Source: Synechococcus sp. PCC 6312
GTDB lineage: Bacteria > Cyanobacteriota > Cyanobacteriia > Thermosynechococcales > Thermosynechococcaceae
Assembly (NCBI RefSeq): GCF_000316685.1
Contig: NC_019680.1
Span: 1,737,501 to 1,801,500, forward strand
DNA length: 64,000 bases
Direction: 5' to 3'
The stretch's first letter is position 1, and each line of letters begins with the position of its first letter. The notes beneath the pieces are model-generated. The model was not told the origin of the DNA and made no database searches. It worked only from the letters and a program-made list of their open reading frames with translations. Shown here piece after piece: positions 3,127 to 24,773 of this stretch. The position numbers and the translations under genes were made by a program.

Positions 3127-3527
3127 TGCCTTACCTCGAAAATTCTGGTCGCCAACTCAAAAACAAATGTCCCAAAATGTATTCTGAGTCACTCCAAACG
3201 TGCCAGATCATCGGTTTTGTTCTACTTGTGACCTTAACAGAGGGGCCAATAGAGAACCCAGCGGTTGTTGTAAGTCTTAATGTCTATTTGAGGACACAAT
3301 TGGGCTAGATCAAGCAATATCCCAGGCCAGGCCAAGAACAGAGCTATTAGCGAAGATTCTAAGAACTGTTACAGATTCTCAAGAAAATGCGAAAACCTGT
3401 AAAGCCCAGTGATACGATTCCTTCAGTTATTAGCGTGCGTGCCCCTTTGGCCGGCTGATTTGACTACACAATGACTGACACAAACAAACTTTTACCTTGT
3501 AGAGTGCAAGATTGGGAGTTGTAGCTC
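3127..3527. other. psaD upstream region
   Basis: A 401-base intergenic region between the divergent small-membrane-protein gene and psaD. It holds an HLR1-like box (listed separately) about 150 bases before psaD. No convincing -35/-10 pair was found: a TTGACT at 3460-3465 lacks a matching -10. The ribosome site GGGAG lies shortly before the psaD ATG. Confidence 0.5.
3365..3377 (+). promoter_or_regulatory. HLR1-like (RpaB) box upstream of psaD
   Basis: ACTGTTACAGATT contains GTTACA, the half-site of the HLR1 element bound by the response regulator RpaB, which controls photosystem I genes in cyanobacteria. The same 13 bases occur upstream of chlP in this window. The second HLR1 half-site is weak, so binding is inferred. 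Confidence 0.5.
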
Positions 3528-6913: not shown

Positions 6914-9214
6914 CTATTCTTTTCGTTGAGGCTTGGGCCTGGGCAAGGTTAAGAGTAGGGGTTGAAGAATATTGTGGAGAGCTTGGAGGCTGCGAGTCAT
7001 GATTTGGAGTTGCTCGACTATGAGGGTGTCATCAATAATTGCTTGCCGAGTTGGAGTTTCGAGTTGCTGTTGCTTGAGTTCCCGAATTCGTTGTTGGCGA
7101 AGTTGTCCTAAATCTGTTTCCAATGCTGCGAGTTCTTGGATTAGCTCTTGGGGAAATGGAATCAGAGGAACATCGGACAGTAAAGCGGCGATTAAATTGC
7201 CCAAAATTGCCGTCAGTTGATTCGTGATCATCGTTAGGTTAGGCATAGAAAACTGATTTTGAAATTGTAATAAATGATTTCCTAACAGACTGAGGGCAAT
7301 AAACAGACGTTGACTGTAATGAAGCAATTGTTCAACCAGTTGAATTTCCTGGGGGGAGGAGTGGGGTTCATTCAGAAATCGTTGCCAGGCCTGGTGAATG
7401 TTACTCAATTTCAGTCGAGTTTGTTGTTGAATTGCAAGTAAATCTTGAGTTGAGATTGATTGATTGTCTTGATACCCAGTTAAAACCATTGCCAATAGAC
7501 GCGATAACGTGGTTAATAGTTCTGCCAGTTGAGAGCTTAATCGTTTCGGTTCCCATTGAGGCAAAACAATATAATTTACCGCAAATGCCACACAGGCCCC
7601 GATCAATGTATTCAGTAGTCGTAATTCCCCCAATATCCAACTATCAGCCAGGCCCGCCGTGAAGGGATTATCAATACTATCCATAATGATCACAATCGGG
7701 GTATATAACAGGACAAACACAAAGTAATTAACCGGCAGAAAGCCCACCATCAGGACAATCAGGAGAATCATAGACAGCATGAGAATGTAGGGATTCTGCA
7801 CATAACTGACTAGGAGAATTGCCCCTAATGCCCCGCCCACACTGCCCAAAACCCGCTGTCCCCCCCGTTTAGAGGCATCACTATAATGGGGTTTAAGAAT
7901 GACTAATACGGTCAACGCCATCCAATAGCCATAGGGTAAATTCCAGGCATTATAAATCGCAACCACCAGAGTCGTGCCAATCGCGATCCGTAAACCGTGG
8001 CGAAAAATCACAGAATCCAACGTAAAATGGCTTTTTAAGACTTTCCACCACATGAGAGTAGGTTCAAATTGACGCACCAAGTCATTGGAGTCTGGAGTGA
8101 TCGTGCCTGTGAAAACGTTATAGATTTGGTTGAGATTATGGGCGATTTGTTTCAGGGATAATAAAGCATAGTTTAACTCTAGGGATTCATCATAGGCAGT
8201 GGATTGATCGGCTCCCTGAAAGGTAATTAACTTTTGCTGTTCAAATTTCTGATCCAACTTTTCAATTTTTGCGGTTAAATCAAATTGCTCTAAATGATGA
8301 TTGACTTGTTCGACTTGTTCTGTGATCTGATTAAGATTGAGAATTAATTGATTAATATCTTGATAAATATCCGACCAGAGAGACTGAAATAAATTTGACC
8401 GTTGCCGCTGCAAAATTTCTGTCAACATCAGAATGGCTAGATACAGTTGCTCACTCAGTTTTAGAAGCGTTGCAAGGTAGGTGACTTTCTGGTGTTTTTG
8501 TATCTGTGCGGCTGTTTTGGGTCGCTTGGGCAAATGAATTTGCGTCAGAATTGTTTGGGCATTCAGGATTCGTTGCCGATTTTCGAGGGTGATGGCCTGG
8601 AATTGAAGGAGATCCGGTGGTGTTTGAACCCCGGCCTGGAGATAATGGGTGACTCCCCGCAAGACTTGGGCGACACTCTGGCGGAAGGGTAATTCTGGTT
8701 GCAGGGGCCAGGCCAAGAGAGCTAAACAGGTTGCCCAAAGCCCTCCTAAGGCGTAAGCTCCCCCTGAAGAGACGGCATTGGCCCAGGAATGATCGCTCGC
8801 GTGGATCGCAAATAAAAAACAACAACCAATTAACACCCCGGCTAAATTCCCCTCTTTGCCAAAAGCATCCAGAAAGCCACAGCTAAAGCCCCAGATAAAC
8901 ATCAAAAACAGGGTCAGACCCAAAACCCCGCTAATTAAAATACCGACCCCGATACTCAACCCCCCTGCCAAGGCAATGGCCAGCAAGGTAATCGCCCGCC
9001 GCCGATAGGCTCCCCCCGGATCCCCAATCCCCACATAACAGGCTCCCCAGGCCGCCCAATTCCACTCAACGGCCCCAGTCATGATTTGAAGCATTAAGGG
9101 AACAATCACAGCAATGGCGGTTATGGCTCCTTGCCGAAGTAAGCGCGGATCTAACTGCCAGCGTTGTCTGAGTTGGGCGAAAATCCACATAAATTTAGTT
9201 GGATTGGTTATCAC
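6914..9214 (-). CDS. FUSC-family integral membrane protein
   Basis: A 766-residue protein of the FUSC/YccS type, related to aromatic-acid efflux proteins and plant ALMT-like channels. There are two hydrophobic blocks of about six helices each (residues about 25-190 and 400-560). The second begins with the typical FRHGLRIAIGTTLVVAIYNAWNLPYGYWMALTV-like region, followed by KPHYSDASKRGGQRVLGSVGGA. A long soluble helical linker separates the blocks, and a soluble Gln/Leu-rich tail follows. The substrate is unknown. The start is uncertain: GTG at 9214 or ATG at 9190. Confidence 0.85.
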   Translation of the reverse strand: MITNPTKFMWIFAQLRQRWQLDPRLLRQGAITAIAVIVPLMLQIMTGAVEWNWAAWGACYVGIGDPGGAYRRRAITLLAIALAGGLSIGVGILISGVLGLTLFLMFIWGFSCGFLDAFGKEGNLAGVLIGCCFLFAIHASDHSWANAVSSGGAYALGGLWATCLALLAWPLQPELPFRQSVAQVLRGVTHYLQAGVQTPPDLLQFQAITLENRQRILNAQTILTQIHLPKRPKTAAQIQKHQKVTYLATLLKLSEQLYLAILMLTEILQRQRSNLFQSLWSDIYQDINQLILNLNQITEQVEQVNHHLEQFDLTAKIEKLDQKFEQQKLITFQGADQSTAYDESLELNYALLSLKQIAHNLNQIYNVFTGTITPDSNDLVRQFEPTLMWWKVLKSHFTLDSVIFRHGLRIAIGTTLVVAIYNAWNLPYGYWMALTVLVILKPHYSDASKRGGQRVLGSVGGALGAILLVSYVQNPYILMLSMILLIVLMVGFLPVNYFVFVLLYTPIVIIMDSIDNPFTAGLADSWILGELRLLNTLIGACVAFAVNYIVLPQWEPKRLSSQLAELLTTLSRLLAMVLTGYQDNQSISTQDLLAIQQQTRLKLSNIHQAWQRFLNEPHSSPQEIQLVEQLLHYSQRLFIALSLLGNHLLQFQNQFSMPNLTMITNQLTAILGNLIAALLSDVPLIPFPQELIQELAALETDLGQLRQQRIRELKQQQLETPTRQAIIDDTLIVEQLQIMTRSLQALHNILQPLLLTLPRPKPQRKE

Positions 9215-19747: not shown

Positions 19748-20890
19748 ATGAACTTAATGACTCCCACCACCGAAAGAAATCCTCAACAACAACTGGAAAA
19801 AGTCTTTCACGCCCTGCAATCGGGTCAAGCCTTACTGCCAGATTCACCGCAAAACGTGATGGAAGTAGTCGGGATTCTCAAGAGCTATGGAATTGTCCTG
19901 AAAGCCTATGCCGAGAATTTAATCTACATCGCCGACCATCAGTTTTTGGTGCTATTTCCCTTTTTTAAGTATTTCAATGGTGAATTTAGCTGGGGCAAGC
20001 TCTGGCGGCATTGGTTCCATGACCGAATTAACTTTGAATATGCGGAATATTGCTTGCGGGTGATGCTCTGGCATGGGGGTGGGGGCCTGGATACCTATTT
20101 GGATTCTGAGGAATTTGTTGGCCTGGCGAAGAAAGCGATTGCGGCCAAGACCGCTGATAATCCGATGATGCGACTCCTGAACTATCTCTTTCCCGAATTT
20201 CTCCCCGAAGTCGTGCGGCAATGGGCTTACTACAGCGGCCTGGGGCAGTTTTGGACGGTGATGTATCCAATTTTCCTCACCCTGAGTGATGAGTATGATG
20301 CCGGCCGGATTACGACAATTCCCCAAGTGGTCGCCCATATCCGCAATGGCCTGGTGGCTGATGCCAATAAACCGATTACCTACAGCGTGGAAATTGATGG
20401 GCAAACCTACGATATTCTCCCGGCCAGTGCAGGGTTAACCTTTTTGATGGATACGGCGGTTCCCTATGTGGAAGCCATTTTCTTGCGAGGTACACCTTTC
20501 TTTGGCACCGTCTCTTACAATGCCCAGGCCCAGCAAATTTCCCCAGAACAAGATCAGTTTGCCTATGGTGCCTTGTATGCGGATCCCCTCCCCACTGGAG
20601 CGGCTGGAATTCCCCCGACATTGGTGATGCAGGATATGCGCCATTATCTCCCGGATTACTTATTAAAGTTTTATCAGCAACAAAATCGGGGTGAAGATGA
20701 TCTGCGGGTCAAAATTTGCGAAACTTTTCAAAAGTCTATGTTTTGTGTGACCACTGCGGCTATTACCGGACTCACGCCCTACCCTTGGGATACCAGTAAT
20801 TCGACTGAGAAAGAGGCAAATGGAGAGTTTTACCAGGCCTGGCTCCAACGCTTGCAAACCTCACAATTAATTACAGTTCAAAACACCTAA
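19748..20890 (+). CDS. cupA: CO2 hydration protein CupA (ChpY)
   Basis: A 380-residue hydrophilic subunit of the NDH-1MS complex that converts CO2 to bicarbonate at the cost of proton/electron flow. Recognised by its characteristic central part (FFKYFNGEFSWGKLWRHWFH, YAEYCLRVMLWHGGGGLDTY) and by its place directly after ndhF3-ndhD3, nine bases behind ndhD3. The conserved His/Cys/Arg-rich stretches fit proposed zinc-site residues, but I cannot assign them. The usual fourth gene, cupS, does not follow; a broken DUF2442 gene does. Confidence 0.94.
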   Translation: MNLMTPTTERNPQQQLEKVFHALQSGQALLPDSPQNVMEVVGILKSYGIVLKAYAENLIYIADHQFLVLFPFFKYFNGEFSWGKLWRHWFHDRINFEYAEYCLRVMLWHGGGGLDTYLDSEEFVGLAKKAIAAKTADNPMMRLLNYLFPEFLPEVVRQWAYYSGLGQFWTVMYPIFLTLSDEYDAGRITTIPQVVAHIRNGLVADANKPITYSVEIDGQTYDILPASAGLTFLMDTAVPYVEAIFLRGTPFFGTVSYNAQAQQISPEQDQFAYGALYADPLPTGAAGIPPTLVMQDMRHYLPDYLLKFYQQQNRGEDDLRVKICETFQKSMFCVTTAAITGLTPYPWDTSNSTEKEANGEFYQAWLQRLQTSQLITVQNT

Positions 20891-20920
20891 ACTTTCTCAA
20901 TCGCGACTTTGAGGGAAAAA

Positions 20921-21172
20921 ATGACTAAGTTTTACCATGTTTATGGCCTGGAGTTTGAGGCTGATGTTCTAATCCTGAAGGTAGATAACCAAGTTGCTCG
21001 CATCCCAATCTCTGAAATTTCATCATGATTAGCTAATGCCAGCCCACAAGAACGATCTATCTATCAAGTTTCGCTCGCCGGATATGGGATTCACTGGCCC
21101 CCGATTGATGAAGATTTATCCATAAACGGCTTGATGAAGATGGCTAGGCCCTTGACAGCCGCCACAACATAA
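20921..21172 (+). pseudogene. DUF2442-like gene broken by one in-frame TGA
   Basis: One continuous frame of 84 codons reads MTKFYHVYGLEFEADVLIL, ARIPISEISS, stop, LANASPQERSIYQVSLAGYG, IHWPPIDEDLSINGL and a terminal TAA. This matches the DUF2442 pattern end to end. The TGA at 21026-21028 stands where relatives carry Arg or Lys, so a single CGA-to-TGA change explains it. DUF2442 proteins are often paired with DUF4160 in toxin-antitoxin-like loci; no DUF4160 gene is seen here. Confidence 0.75.
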
Positions 21173-21187
21173 CTCACTCGCTTAGTC

Positions 21188-21355
21188 CTACGCAAAATCG
21201 GCTAATACTTCGACTTGGGTGGGTTCATCGGTTGCGTCTGATTCTGGAACAAGAATGATTACTTCAACTCGACTATTTTCATCAATGGTTAGGGGGTGAT
21301 CTAGGGTTAATTGGCCTTGATGGTTAATGGTGGCCATAGCTTTGACGGCTTTCAT
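21188..21355 (-). CDS. Small antitoxin-like protein
   Basis: A 55-residue protein, MKAVKAMATINHQGQLTLDH then PLTIDENSRVEVIILVPE, resembling short cyanobacterial proteins that often accompany PIN or RelE-type toxin genes. The pattern suggests a swapped-hairpin (AbrB-like) or AF2212-like fold. The ATG at 21355 was chosen because AAGGA lies just upstream. No intact toxin is adjacent; the nearest neighbour is the broken DUF2442 gene. The function is an inference from size and pattern. Confidence 0.5.
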   Translation of the reverse strand: MKAVKAMATINHQGQLTLDHPLTIDENSRVEVIILVPESDATDEPTQVEVLADFA

Positions 21356-21484
21356 AATAATTTCCTTCAATTATTAGGAGCATAGTCTTGATAAATATCT
21401 CACAATCCTCTCAAAGCTTTGGGATTCAGTCCAACCTGTAAGAAGGTTCTATCTAACAAGTTTTACCGGCCACACACTATTTGA

Positions 21485-21685
21485 TCAATATTTTTTTAAT
21501 CTGAACAATATAAGCTGTTGTACGTATGATGGGGGTTCTTTTTCTCCTTGCAACCAGCTTTGCAAAGTCCTATGAGGAACGTCAAATAAAATCCTACAAA
21601 GTTCTACTTGGGTTATACCCAGCTTTTGCTTTGCCTCATTGAGACTTTCTGAAAACTTAGAATTCATAACTTTACTACTTGACAT
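21485..21685 (-). CDS. Small helix-turn-helix protein beside the R-M system
   Basis: A 66-residue protein with an XRE-like helix-turn-helix: SLNEAKQKLGITQVELCRIL, then FDVPHRTLQSWLQGEKEPPS. It is divergent from the methyltransferase with about 73 AT-rich bases between them, the place where controller (C) proteins of type II R-M systems often sit. It is not a close match to classical C proteins by eye, and no clear C-box was found; ATCT...AGAT at 21715-21730 is a weak dyad. The ATG at 21685 was chosen over an upstream TTG. Confidence 0.6.
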   Translation of the reverse strand: MSSSKVMNSKFSESLNEAKQKLGITQVELCRILFDVPHRTLQSWLQGEKEPPSYVQQLILFRLKKY

Positions 21686-21758
21686 AACGTACTGAGTGCG
21701 TAAAAATATCAACTATCTCAAGCTGTAGATGACTCAATTTTATTAAAAAGCGTTGAAA

Positions 21759-22883
21759 ATGAAGTCACCCATTATTTTTTCATTTTTTTCTGGCTGTGGA
21801 TTTCTCGATTTAGGATTTGAACGTGCAAGCTTTAACATTGAGTTTGTCAATGAGAATCATATCCCTTTTTTAGAGGCATATAAGTATTCAAGAACTCAAC
21901 TAAGGATAAAACCTCCGAAATATGGATATGATTCAACTAGTATAGAATCTTTTCTCAGTGGTGATAGCAGGATATATCTTCAGAAGTTAGTAAATAATGC
22001 TAAATCAAAAGTGAATCTGGTTGGCTTTGTTGGCGGCCCACCATGTCCTGATTTTTCAATTGGAGGTAAAAATAAAGGTCAATATGGTGACAATGGAAAG
22101 TTAACCAAGGTTTATGTTGATATTATTATTGAAAATCAGCCAGATTTCTTTGTATTTGAAAATGTTAAAGGGCTGTGGAGAACTAGAAGTCATCGGCAAT
22201 TCTATGAAAACTTGAAACATAAGTTATCTAACTATGGATATGTTCTTACCGACAGACTAACCAATTGCATCGAGTTTGGAGTGCCGCAAAATAGAGATCG
22301 GATTATAATGTTTGGCATTAAAAAGACACTTATATCAAGATTAAATCATCAGCAATCTCTATATGACGCTTTCAAGTGGGATAAATATATTAAATACGAC
22401 AAAAATGAAGTATTAAATCGATTTTTATGGCCGTCTACAGATGTCTATGAAGAAGATAGCTTTAGATCTATGCCAGAAAATCTTAATGGACTACATCAAC
22501 TTACTGTCCAATATTGGTTTAAAAAAAATAATGTTGAACATCATCCTAATGCCCATCATTTTTTTAAACCGAGGGCTGGATTGATAAGATTTCAGACTGT
22601 TGCTGAAGGGGATGATAGCAAGAAATCCTATAAACGCTTACACAGATGGCGATATTCCCCCACAGCTGCATATGGTAATAATGAAGTTCATTTACATCCA
22701 TACAAGAGTAGAAGGCTTTCTGTCGCTGAAGCATTAGCTATACAATCTTTGCCACCAGAGTTTAGTTTGCCTGAAAGTATGTCTTTGTCTAATATGTTTA
22801 AAACAATTGGAAATGGCGTACCGTATTTGGCTTCTTTAGGTATTGCAAATACAGTTCGTGATTTCCTGGAAAGCATTAAATAG
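21759..22883 (+). CDS. DNA cytosine-5 methyltransferase (type II modification enzyme)
   Basis: A 374-residue C5-cytosine methyltransferase. The motifs are in order: motif I FSFFSGCGFLDLGFE (SAM binding), motif IV GGPPCPDFS with the catalytic Cys96, motif VI FENVK, motif VIII QNRDRIIMFGI and motif X GNGVPYLAS. It is convergent with the restriction gene, which ends only three bases beyond its stop, so it should protect the same site. The predicted target is RCCGGY from the partner. The gene is clearly more AT-rich than the flanking genome, suggesting transfer. Confidence 0.93.
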   Translation: MKSPIIFSFFSGCGFLDLGFERASFNIEFVNENHIPFLEAYKYSRTQLRIKPPKYGYDSTSIESFLSGDSRIYLQKLVNNAKSKVNLVGFVGGPPCPDFSIGGKNKGQYGDNGKLTKVYVDIIIENQPDFFVFENVKGLWRTRSHRQFYENLKHKLSNYGYVLTDRLTNCIEFGVPQNRDRIIMFGIKKTLISRLNHQQSLYDAFKWDKYIKYDKNEVLNRFLWPSTDVYEEDSFRSMPENLNGLHQLTVQYWFKKNNVEHHPNAHHFFKPRAGLIRFQTVAEGDDSKKSYKRLHRWRYSPTAAYGNNEVHLHPYKSRRLSVAEALAIQSLPPEFSLPESMSLSNMFKTIGNGVPYLASLGIANTVRDFLESIK

Positions 22884-22886
22884 TTG

Positions 22887-23711
22887 TTAATAAATCAATA
22901 TTTTTTCAAAAGCATCATTAGCTTGCTGTAGTGTGTTAATCTCAAAAACTTCATCAACGGCAGCCTGAGGCAAACTCTGAACATTGGTAATAGAGTGGGT
23001 TGCAACTGTCTTTAATGCATCTCTATCAGCAGGGCCTACTTCCGAAGCCGCAGCATAATACTTTAAACCCTTTGGATTGATAACCCACTCTCTAGTTTGC
23101 AAATGTATATAGGTCGCTTTCATAAGACTACCTTCATGGGGAATCTGTAAACGCCTATCAGATCTAAAACTTGTTTTTACTGCTAAATAAGCAACAATAT
23201 TGTTAAATGAACATTGATCGATAAATCCAGTATATGATTGCTGTAGTAGTCTTATTGAATCTGAAGTAAATTGATGAATGTGAGAGTTCAAAGAAGGGTC
23301 AACATCAATTTCCTCTGGATCAATAACAACAAAATCAGGATTTGAAGTTATAAGCTGAACACCTGCTATGTTGTTCACTTTTTGTTTTAGATCATTTATG
23401 TGATTGCTTAAGTTTGGAGTATATAAATTTGAAATATCGAAACTCGAAACTTTAGGCAATAGTAATCCAATAAGCTTTTTTCTGTTTTGTATTCGGAAAT
23501 TCCACAAGCTTCTAGCAATGATCCACTCATACCAATCACCATGGCAAACATTCAGTGAACCCTGTGAAACTGACGGATTAATAGCTCTAGCAGCTTGATC
23601 TAAAGAATCTAATATTCCTCTAAAAGTATCATTTTGATTTGGAAAATTACCACTTCGCAAACTACAAAAAACTTGAATCATGTAGGGAGTATTAGAATTT
23701 GATGTTGCCAT
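22887..23711 (-). CDS. Type II restriction endonuclease, Cfr10I/Bse634I family
   Basis: A 274-residue PD-(D/E)XK endonuclease. It aligns by eye with Bse634I: GDWYEWIIA (Glu62), LITSNPDFVVI (Asp126), KTSFRSDRRLQ (Lys179) and HEG (Glu193). The Lys-to-Glu spacing of 14 equals that of Bse634I (K198, E212). The RSDRR segment corresponds to the CCGG-reading RPDRR of the family, and the C terminus ATHSITNVQSLPQAAVDE also matches. Family enzymes cut R/CCGGY as tetramers. No catalytic residue is missing, so it looks functional. Confidence 0.88.
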   Translation of the reverse strand: MATSNSNTPYMIQVFCSLRSGNFPNQNDTFRGILDSLDQAARAINPSVSQGSLNVCHGDWYEWIIARSLWNFRIQNRKKLIGLLLPKVSSFDISNLYTPNLSNHINDLKQKVNNIAGVQLITSNPDFVVIDPEEIDVDPSLNSHIHQFTSDSIRLLQQSYTGFIDQCSFNNIVAYLAVKTSFRSDRRLQIPHEGSLMKATYIHLQTREWVINPKGLKYYAAASEVGPADRDALKTVATHSITNVQSLPQAAVDEVFEINTLQQANDAFEKILIY

Positions 23712-23992
23712 AGTTATGAATTAGATAGTCCCGAATCAATTTCAAGTAATAGGTTTCTGTATGACGACAAAGAGAGTATGAGTTAAGTTTAAGTTATGCC
23801 AAACGTCCTTTTAAAATTTATTACGAGTTATTTATTGGATCAAGAACAGAATATATTCTGCTTTTCCTCAAGACTTTTTGAAGCAAGTCTGTTAGGTTGA
23901 AGCCATCGTACTCTGTCATTCACGAAAGGTACTACATTGGTAACTGCTTAAGCCTTGAATATTTATTTTAGCTAGCTTATCATCCTTTGTAC

Positions 23993-24288
23993 TCATAGGG
24001 GCCTGGCTTCTCCCAACACCCGCTCCCGAATAAATGGACTAATCCCCTTTTCTGTCAGAACATCCACCCGACAGCCCAACAAATCCCGCAAATCCATCAA
24101 TAACCCACCGGTCAACCAAGGTGTAACCCGACTCGCATCATAGTCAATCAAAAAAAATCAACATAACTATCCACCGTATCCTCTCCCCGCACCACCGAAC
24201 CAAACACCCGGACATTGAACGTCCCAGGCCATGCAGCAATCGTGTAAATTTCCTCTCGCCTGCCCTGGACTCGTTCTAATAACGCCAT
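23993..24288 (-). pseudogene. MNT-type nucleotidyltransferase broken by a homopolymer frameshift
   Basis: The start reads MALLERVQGRREEIYTIAAW, then FNVRVFGSVVRGEDTVDSYV, the GSxxRGxxxxxSDxD-type core of minimal nucleotidyltransferases (MntA-like, partners of HEPN toxins). After a run of eight T (24150-24157 on the plus strand as A8), the frame hits TGA. Removing two T, or adding one, restores DFLIDYDASRVTPWLTGGLL and a normal C terminus ending at 23993. The second Asp codon region is also altered (SYVDF where SDVDF is expected). No intact HEPN gene adjoins. Confidence 0.75.
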
Positions 24289-24328
24289 ACTGGCCTACTG
24301 ACCTTTATTGGAGACAACTTCAATTGTG

Positions 24329-24773
24329 CTAATTTTGTTTGACTAACCAGGCCTGGAGTTCTGAAATATTCTGAAAATTCAACAATGCCTCGCCCAGTAA
24401 CTCTAACCGCTCAGAAGATAAAGCCCTAACCTGTTGCTCAAGAGAAGCATCAATACTGCCAAACTTAAGCCCTAATTGACGAAGGATTAACTTTGATTCT
24501 CCTAACTTCTCTCCCTCTTCTCGGCCGATTTGCAATACATCCTGATAAAACCTAGTATGGCTGAGGTCTTCTGCTTGTAGTCCGAGCATTTGACGAATTT
24601 CCTCCAAACTTAGATTTGGAAACTTATTCCCTAATATAGCCTCAATCAAATCTAAACCATGGCATAAAATCAGCCGTATTCGCCACAGAATTTTCCGGCA
24701 GGCCAGGTATTAACTCTGTAATTAATCGAGTCTGAAATAGAAAAATCGCATAAAATAGTTTGTCAGTTTTCAC
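24329..24773 (-). pseudogene. Degraded Rpn-family (DUF2887/DUF4351) nuclease gene
   Basis: The N-terminal piece (GTG at 24773) reads VKTDKLFYAIFLFQTRLITE then LIPGLPENS, as in DUF2887/Rpn recombination-promoting nucleases. In another frame a typical DUF4351 C terminus follows: IEAILGNKFPNLSLEEIRQM, SKLILRQLGLKFGSID and ALLNFQNISELQAWL. The PD-(D/E)XK catalytic middle, some 150 residues, is missing. An internal deletion with frameshift has therefore killed it. A CCAGGCCTGG copy lies in its last codons. Confidence 0.7.

Follow-up and report, generated by a model that had tools for sequence, protein, structure and literature searches.

Cfr10I of Citrobacter freundii (R/CCGGY; 1cfr) is the closest solved relative of the restriction endonuclease (R) described in this work, and its Trp220, like Trp228 of Bse634I, is important for the tetramer. 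In Bse634I the outer base pair is contacted by Asn73 in the minor groove and by Pro203 in the major groove (PMC4652773), and is recognised mainly by indirect readout (PMC6344858). Nuclease and methyltransferase (M) genes of this kind are convergent in Bse634I and in the BsrFI locus (L014), the latter inferred to be such from its strain (Geobacillus CPW16, the source of BsrFI) and from the name of its plasmid, pBsrF30. Methylation at RCCGGY has been found in CPW16 and in two strains of Anabaena (PMC8112702).

Some restriction-modification (R-M) systems have in addition a controller (C) gene. C.BclI, C.AhdI and C.Esp1396I are small proteins of lambda-repressor-like fold, usually encoded upstream of R and co-transcribed with it. 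C.Kpn2I, from the Kpn2I system (TCCGGA), is 96 amino acids long. Its gene is divergent from, and adjoins, that of M. The system is described as the tested exception to the usual layout: the controller comes before M and governs it by acting at the M promoter, whilst R is unaffected by and independent of C (PMC4824078, PMC6237814). Relative to its gene, the C.Kpn2I site runs from -14 to +34, without clear inverted repeats, and the bound protein also acts as an elongation roadblock (PMC6237814).

Results

The window, by which we mean the whole stretch of 64,000 nucleotides of Synechococcus sp. PCC 6312 that was analysed, carries a complete R gene (22887-23711, minus strand, 274 aa) and a complete M gene (21759-22883, plus strand, 374 aa, or 376 aa from an alternative TTG start at 21753). 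A sequence-only reading had described these two open frames as an R-M pair lying tail to tail, three bases apart, in an AT-rich locus, and so they are: the stop-to-stop gap is 22884-22886, and GC content is 34-38% in the locus, compared with about 48.5% in a 461.5 kb sample of the genome (3,720,499 bases in two contigs). Both genes are intact, as that reading held; what it left out, inside the same coordinates, is a minus-strand gene at 21485-21685, the third of the locus, which encodes a small helix-turn-helix (HTH) protein, and a predicted operator beside it. The flanks (20909-21370 and 23993-24649) contain an interrupted small ORF, an antitoxin-like ORF of 60 aa, nucleotidyltransferase-like pieces and a DUF4351 remnant, and these fragments on both sides suggest a degraded hotspot for insertions. 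No copy of the cyanobacterial HIP1 octamer, GCGATCGC, lies in the window, and it occurs only four times in the 461.5 kb sample.

The family assigned to the nuclease by eye is borne out by profile search (PF07832, 222.7 bits against a cut-off of 27, E 7.9e-66) and by comparison with solved structures (Cfr10I 1cfr, E 2.4e-63; Bse634I 1knv, E 2.5e-39), and the protein is, by its sequence, an intact member of the Cfr10I/Bse634I family. Its permuted active site E...PD...K...E has the Bse634I spacing (E62, P125-D126, K179, E193), with Glu62, Asp126, Lys179 and Glu193 just where they had been placed and the claimed 14 residues from Lys to Glu, as in Bse634I (K198-E212) and Cfr10I (K190-E204). The recognition segment RSDRR does occupy residues 183-187, and within it lies the R-x-D-R motif that reads CCGG (R183, D185, R186). 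In an alignment of 13 sequences, which includes Cfr10I, Bse634I and the R of the BsrFI locus, E62, D126, K179, E193, R183, D185 and R186 are invariant, and correspond in that order to Bse634I E80, D146, K198, E212, R202, D204 and R205. Identity to Cfr10I is 44%, with the same catalytic residues and R-x-D-R motif, and Trp209 aligns with Cfr10I Trp220 and Bse634I Trp228. The differences from Cfr10I are a shorter N-terminus, Val55 in place of a Lys in the N-terminal recognition helix, and Ser184 in place of Pro195. These two residues stand at the positions of Bse634I Asn73 and Pro203, respectively, and as Cfr10I itself differs at the Asn73 position, such contacts do not seem to define the family. 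An AlphaFold model of R (four sequences) was too poor for use (pLDDT 57.6).

M matches the C5-cytosine methyltransferase profile PF00145 (E 9.9e-47) and PADLOC MTase_II PDLC03355 (E 4e-169), the second of which is also matched by the M of the BsrFI locus (E 6e-175). Motifs I, IV (PPC), VI (ENV), VIII (QxRxR), IX and X are all there, with GGPPC, ENV, QNRDR and GNGVP seen. The BsrFI locus likewise has a convergent R and M belonging to these families, with 31% identity to the window in R and 41% in M, and the distal target-recognition core of M (EGDD...HLHP) is common to both, 77% identical over 35 positions. Unlike the window, that locus has a different HTH gene of 118 aa upstream of R, no controller divergent from M, and no matching operator. 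A methyltransferase 52% identical to the M of the window is found on Rhizobium leguminosarum pRlX5 (L019:2551-4095); it is extended by about 145 aa at the N-terminus, and no gene for a Cfr10I-type nuclease was seen next to it. The Synechococcus genome has three more C5-methyltransferase genes (G000:C1 2126000-2127238, 2349564-2350460 and 108783-109667), whose specificities could overlap with RCCGGY.

Because the core of M matches that of the BsrFI-locus M, whose host has RCCGGY methylation, RCCGGY is the best prediction of specificity that the sequences allow, and a likely if uncertain one. The sequence-only reading had proposed it too; the match in M speaks in its favour, and Ser184 at the position of Bse634I Pro203 is the reservation. 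RCCGGY is indeed common in the window (46 sites), though the three examples given earlier, at 3449, 11529 and 14966, are actually at 3450, 11536 and 14969, one to seven bases off. Avoidance of the site was dropped as a test of specificity: RCCGGY reaches 0.71 of its expected count and YCCGGR 0.74, which makes site counts neutral towards the prediction.

The third gene, C, is divergent from M and encodes 66 aa from ATG 21685, its ORF reaching TTG 21712. Genes homologous to it are placed likewise in Leptolyngbya (L002, 69% identity), Algicola (L004, 69%) and a Moraxella plasmid (L013, 60%), the position of the gene being thus conserved across two phyla; a further one (54%) lies on Moraxella plasmid pSKB0120-7 (L025), beside an unrelated pair of M and putative nuclease. 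These four and the window are the only five C-bearing loci known, and HTH searches of 386 cyanobacterial and 398 proteobacterial genomes gave strong scores only at known loci, the rest being weak generic HTH matches. C falls below the cut-offs of Pfam and NCBIfam and has no PADLOC match. Its AlphaFold model (pLDDT 84.6) has four helices, and the best Foldseek matches include C.BclI, C.AhdI, C.Esp1396I and C.Kpn2I (TM about 0.7, E 0.1 or weaker), to the last of which it is similar in fold only (17% identity). In a phmmer search against solved structures, C proteins included, no significant relative was found, and the operators of C.BclI, C.AhdI and C.Esp1396I are different. The model and the position suggest that C is probably a lambda-repressor-like HTH protein, and the predicted controller of M; given the likeness in fold without a significant match in sequence, we would say that it works like C.Kpn2I rather than that it is a member of the same family. 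C was also considered as a toxin-antitoxin partner, which was rejected since no toxin gene is adjacent and close homologues recur with R-M systems only.

The regions between C and M have in common a near-palindrome, TTACGCACTnAGTGCGTAA, which is perfect in L013; the copy in the window, TAACGTACTGAGTGCGTAA, lies at 21685-21703 and has no strand. With L013 as reference, the match is 16/18 in the window, L002, L004 and L025, and 15/18 in L003, scores not reached in 1500 dinucleotide shuffles per region. The element is present in all five loci with C, including L025 with its unrelated M and R, and in one of nine without it. Among the seven C-less loci of the same R-M family, L003 is the only one to have it, and L006-L009, L014 and L015 are at chance; it is also absent from L068 and L069, which are C-less relatives of the L025 nuclease. 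The hypergeometric probability of this co-occurrence is 6/2002, or about 0.003, ignoring shared ancestry. In L003 (Candidatus Paraprochloron terpiosi, 7915-8330) the operator is kept in the M promoter and C is absent from locus and genome; since this locus is nested among C-bearing ones in the M tree, it is consistent with loss of C and retention of the operator. The genome of the window has no second copy at three or fewer mismatches, and the next-best operator-like sites in the window match at 13/18, far from the locus. Exact copies in viral contigs numbered six, none near a homologous HTH gene, which is roughly what chance could give for a 16-base pattern in a collection that large, and they were not taken as biologically meaningful.

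The predicted M promoter, TTGACA-17-AAAAAT (21679-21707, plus strand), is the top promoter-like site of 20850-24700 (10/12, AAAAAT being a weak match to the -10), and the operator lies within it, filling the spacer. This placement, as a 19-bp near-palindrome, sets the site apart from that of C.Kpn2I. In six of six loci TTGAC stands at a nearly constant offset to the palindrome. If C starts at ATG 21685 the operator abuts its start, and if it starts at TTG 21712 the operator is inside the ORF, in which case an elongation roadblock would be possible in the window too, but less so in L013 and L025, where the gene begins at least 100 bp off.

PF07832 is found above cut-off in six of the 386 cyanobacterial genomes; in the relatives set, none of the other 57 genomes has it. 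Relatives are on plasmids and, in Algicola, on a contig with a viral classification (IMG/VR), a pattern that fits a mobile system gained by horizontal transfer. No R homologues were found in phage records. In Algicola sagamiensis (L004/L016) the orthologous three-gene system sits among phage-like genes and, together with the IMG/VR contig, this makes it probably prophage-borne. On pSKB0120-7, the ORF L025:6476-7369, PD...ExK-like and convergent with a C5 methyltransferase, has no match in Pfam, NCBIfam, PADLOC or PHROG; relatives 37% identical are on Psychrobacter (convergent, beside dcm) and Prevotella replicons, and by its sequence it is a possible unrecognised restriction endonuclease family.

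Discussion

The reading we prefer, with a probability of roughly 0.77, is that of an intact, horizontally acquired three-gene R-M system in which R cuts R/CCGGY, M protects, and C represses M and leaves R independent. R would cleave as a tetramer holding two sites, and the RCCGGY sites of the host would be protected by C5 methylation. In a newly entered cell the M promoter would be free and M the first product; with the build-up of C, its dimer would settle on the 19-bp near-palindrome between -35 and -10 and exclude RNA polymerase, bringing M down to a maintenance level. R, without such an operator, would be expressed from its own promoter.

Activation of a C-R operon is the commonest role of C proteins (PMC4824078), and the fold shared with C.BclI and C.AhdI may suggest that this C is a conventional activator-repressor of R; the operator abutting its start at ATG 21685 may likewise suggest that it regulates itself only, and in neither case would it repress M. 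We consider this unlikely, for C is not upstream of R, the next-best operator-like sites are remote, and the element sits in the spacer of the M promoter, tracking TTGAC in six loci, whereas in L013 and L025 the C start is at least 100 bp away from it. Slightly more doubtful is the idea that the pair is real but that the outer base pair accepted by the nuclease is narrower or different (e.g., GCCGGC), with M protecting RCCGGY. Ser184, at a base-contacting position, could indeed narrow or change the outer base, and it is a Ser in NgoMIV (GCCGGC) and SgrAI (CRCCGGYG) too (PMC4652773). SgrAI, however, reads R:Y in spite of its Ser, the nearest relatives of R keep the Pro, and among characterised enzymes R is closest to Cfr10I, an RCCGGY cutter that itself differs at the Asn73 position. 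As the outer pair is read chiefly by indirect readout in Bse634I (PMC6344858), and methylation motif and nuclease site coincide in fourteen characterised m5C cases (PMC8112702), RCCGGY is still most likely for both.

We give least credence to the locus being a decaying relic, with genes open and expression or activity gone. The gene fragments in the flanks, including the interrupted ORF from 20909-21028 onward, would suit such a history, and C can be lost, as in L003; against this, none of the three frames is broken, and both the operator and the catalytic motifs of the two enzymes are preserved.

The R-M pair in itself is of a well-known kind, and the part of more interest is the pairing of controller and operator, a family that appears undescribed in the literature examined. 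We lean towards the view that C founds an undescribed controller family that travels with its own 19-bp operator, occludes the spacer of the M promoter, and has been swapped between unrelated convergent R-M pairs, namely the RCCGGY pairs of Cyanobacteria and Gammaproteobacteria and the unrelated pair on Moraxella pSKB0120-7. For Synechococcus sp. PCC 6312 the system, its activity being predicted, is probably an ordinary barrier to transformation and phage, and pre-methylation of DNA at RCCGGY is advised in engineering this host. If our interpretation is correct, controller and operator would make up a portable module, whose defined operator leaves the mechanism open to direct test, and C would represent a second, sequence-unrelated family of controllers acting on M only. 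Shared by unrelated R-M systems across phyla, such a family would point to more than one origin for this wiring.
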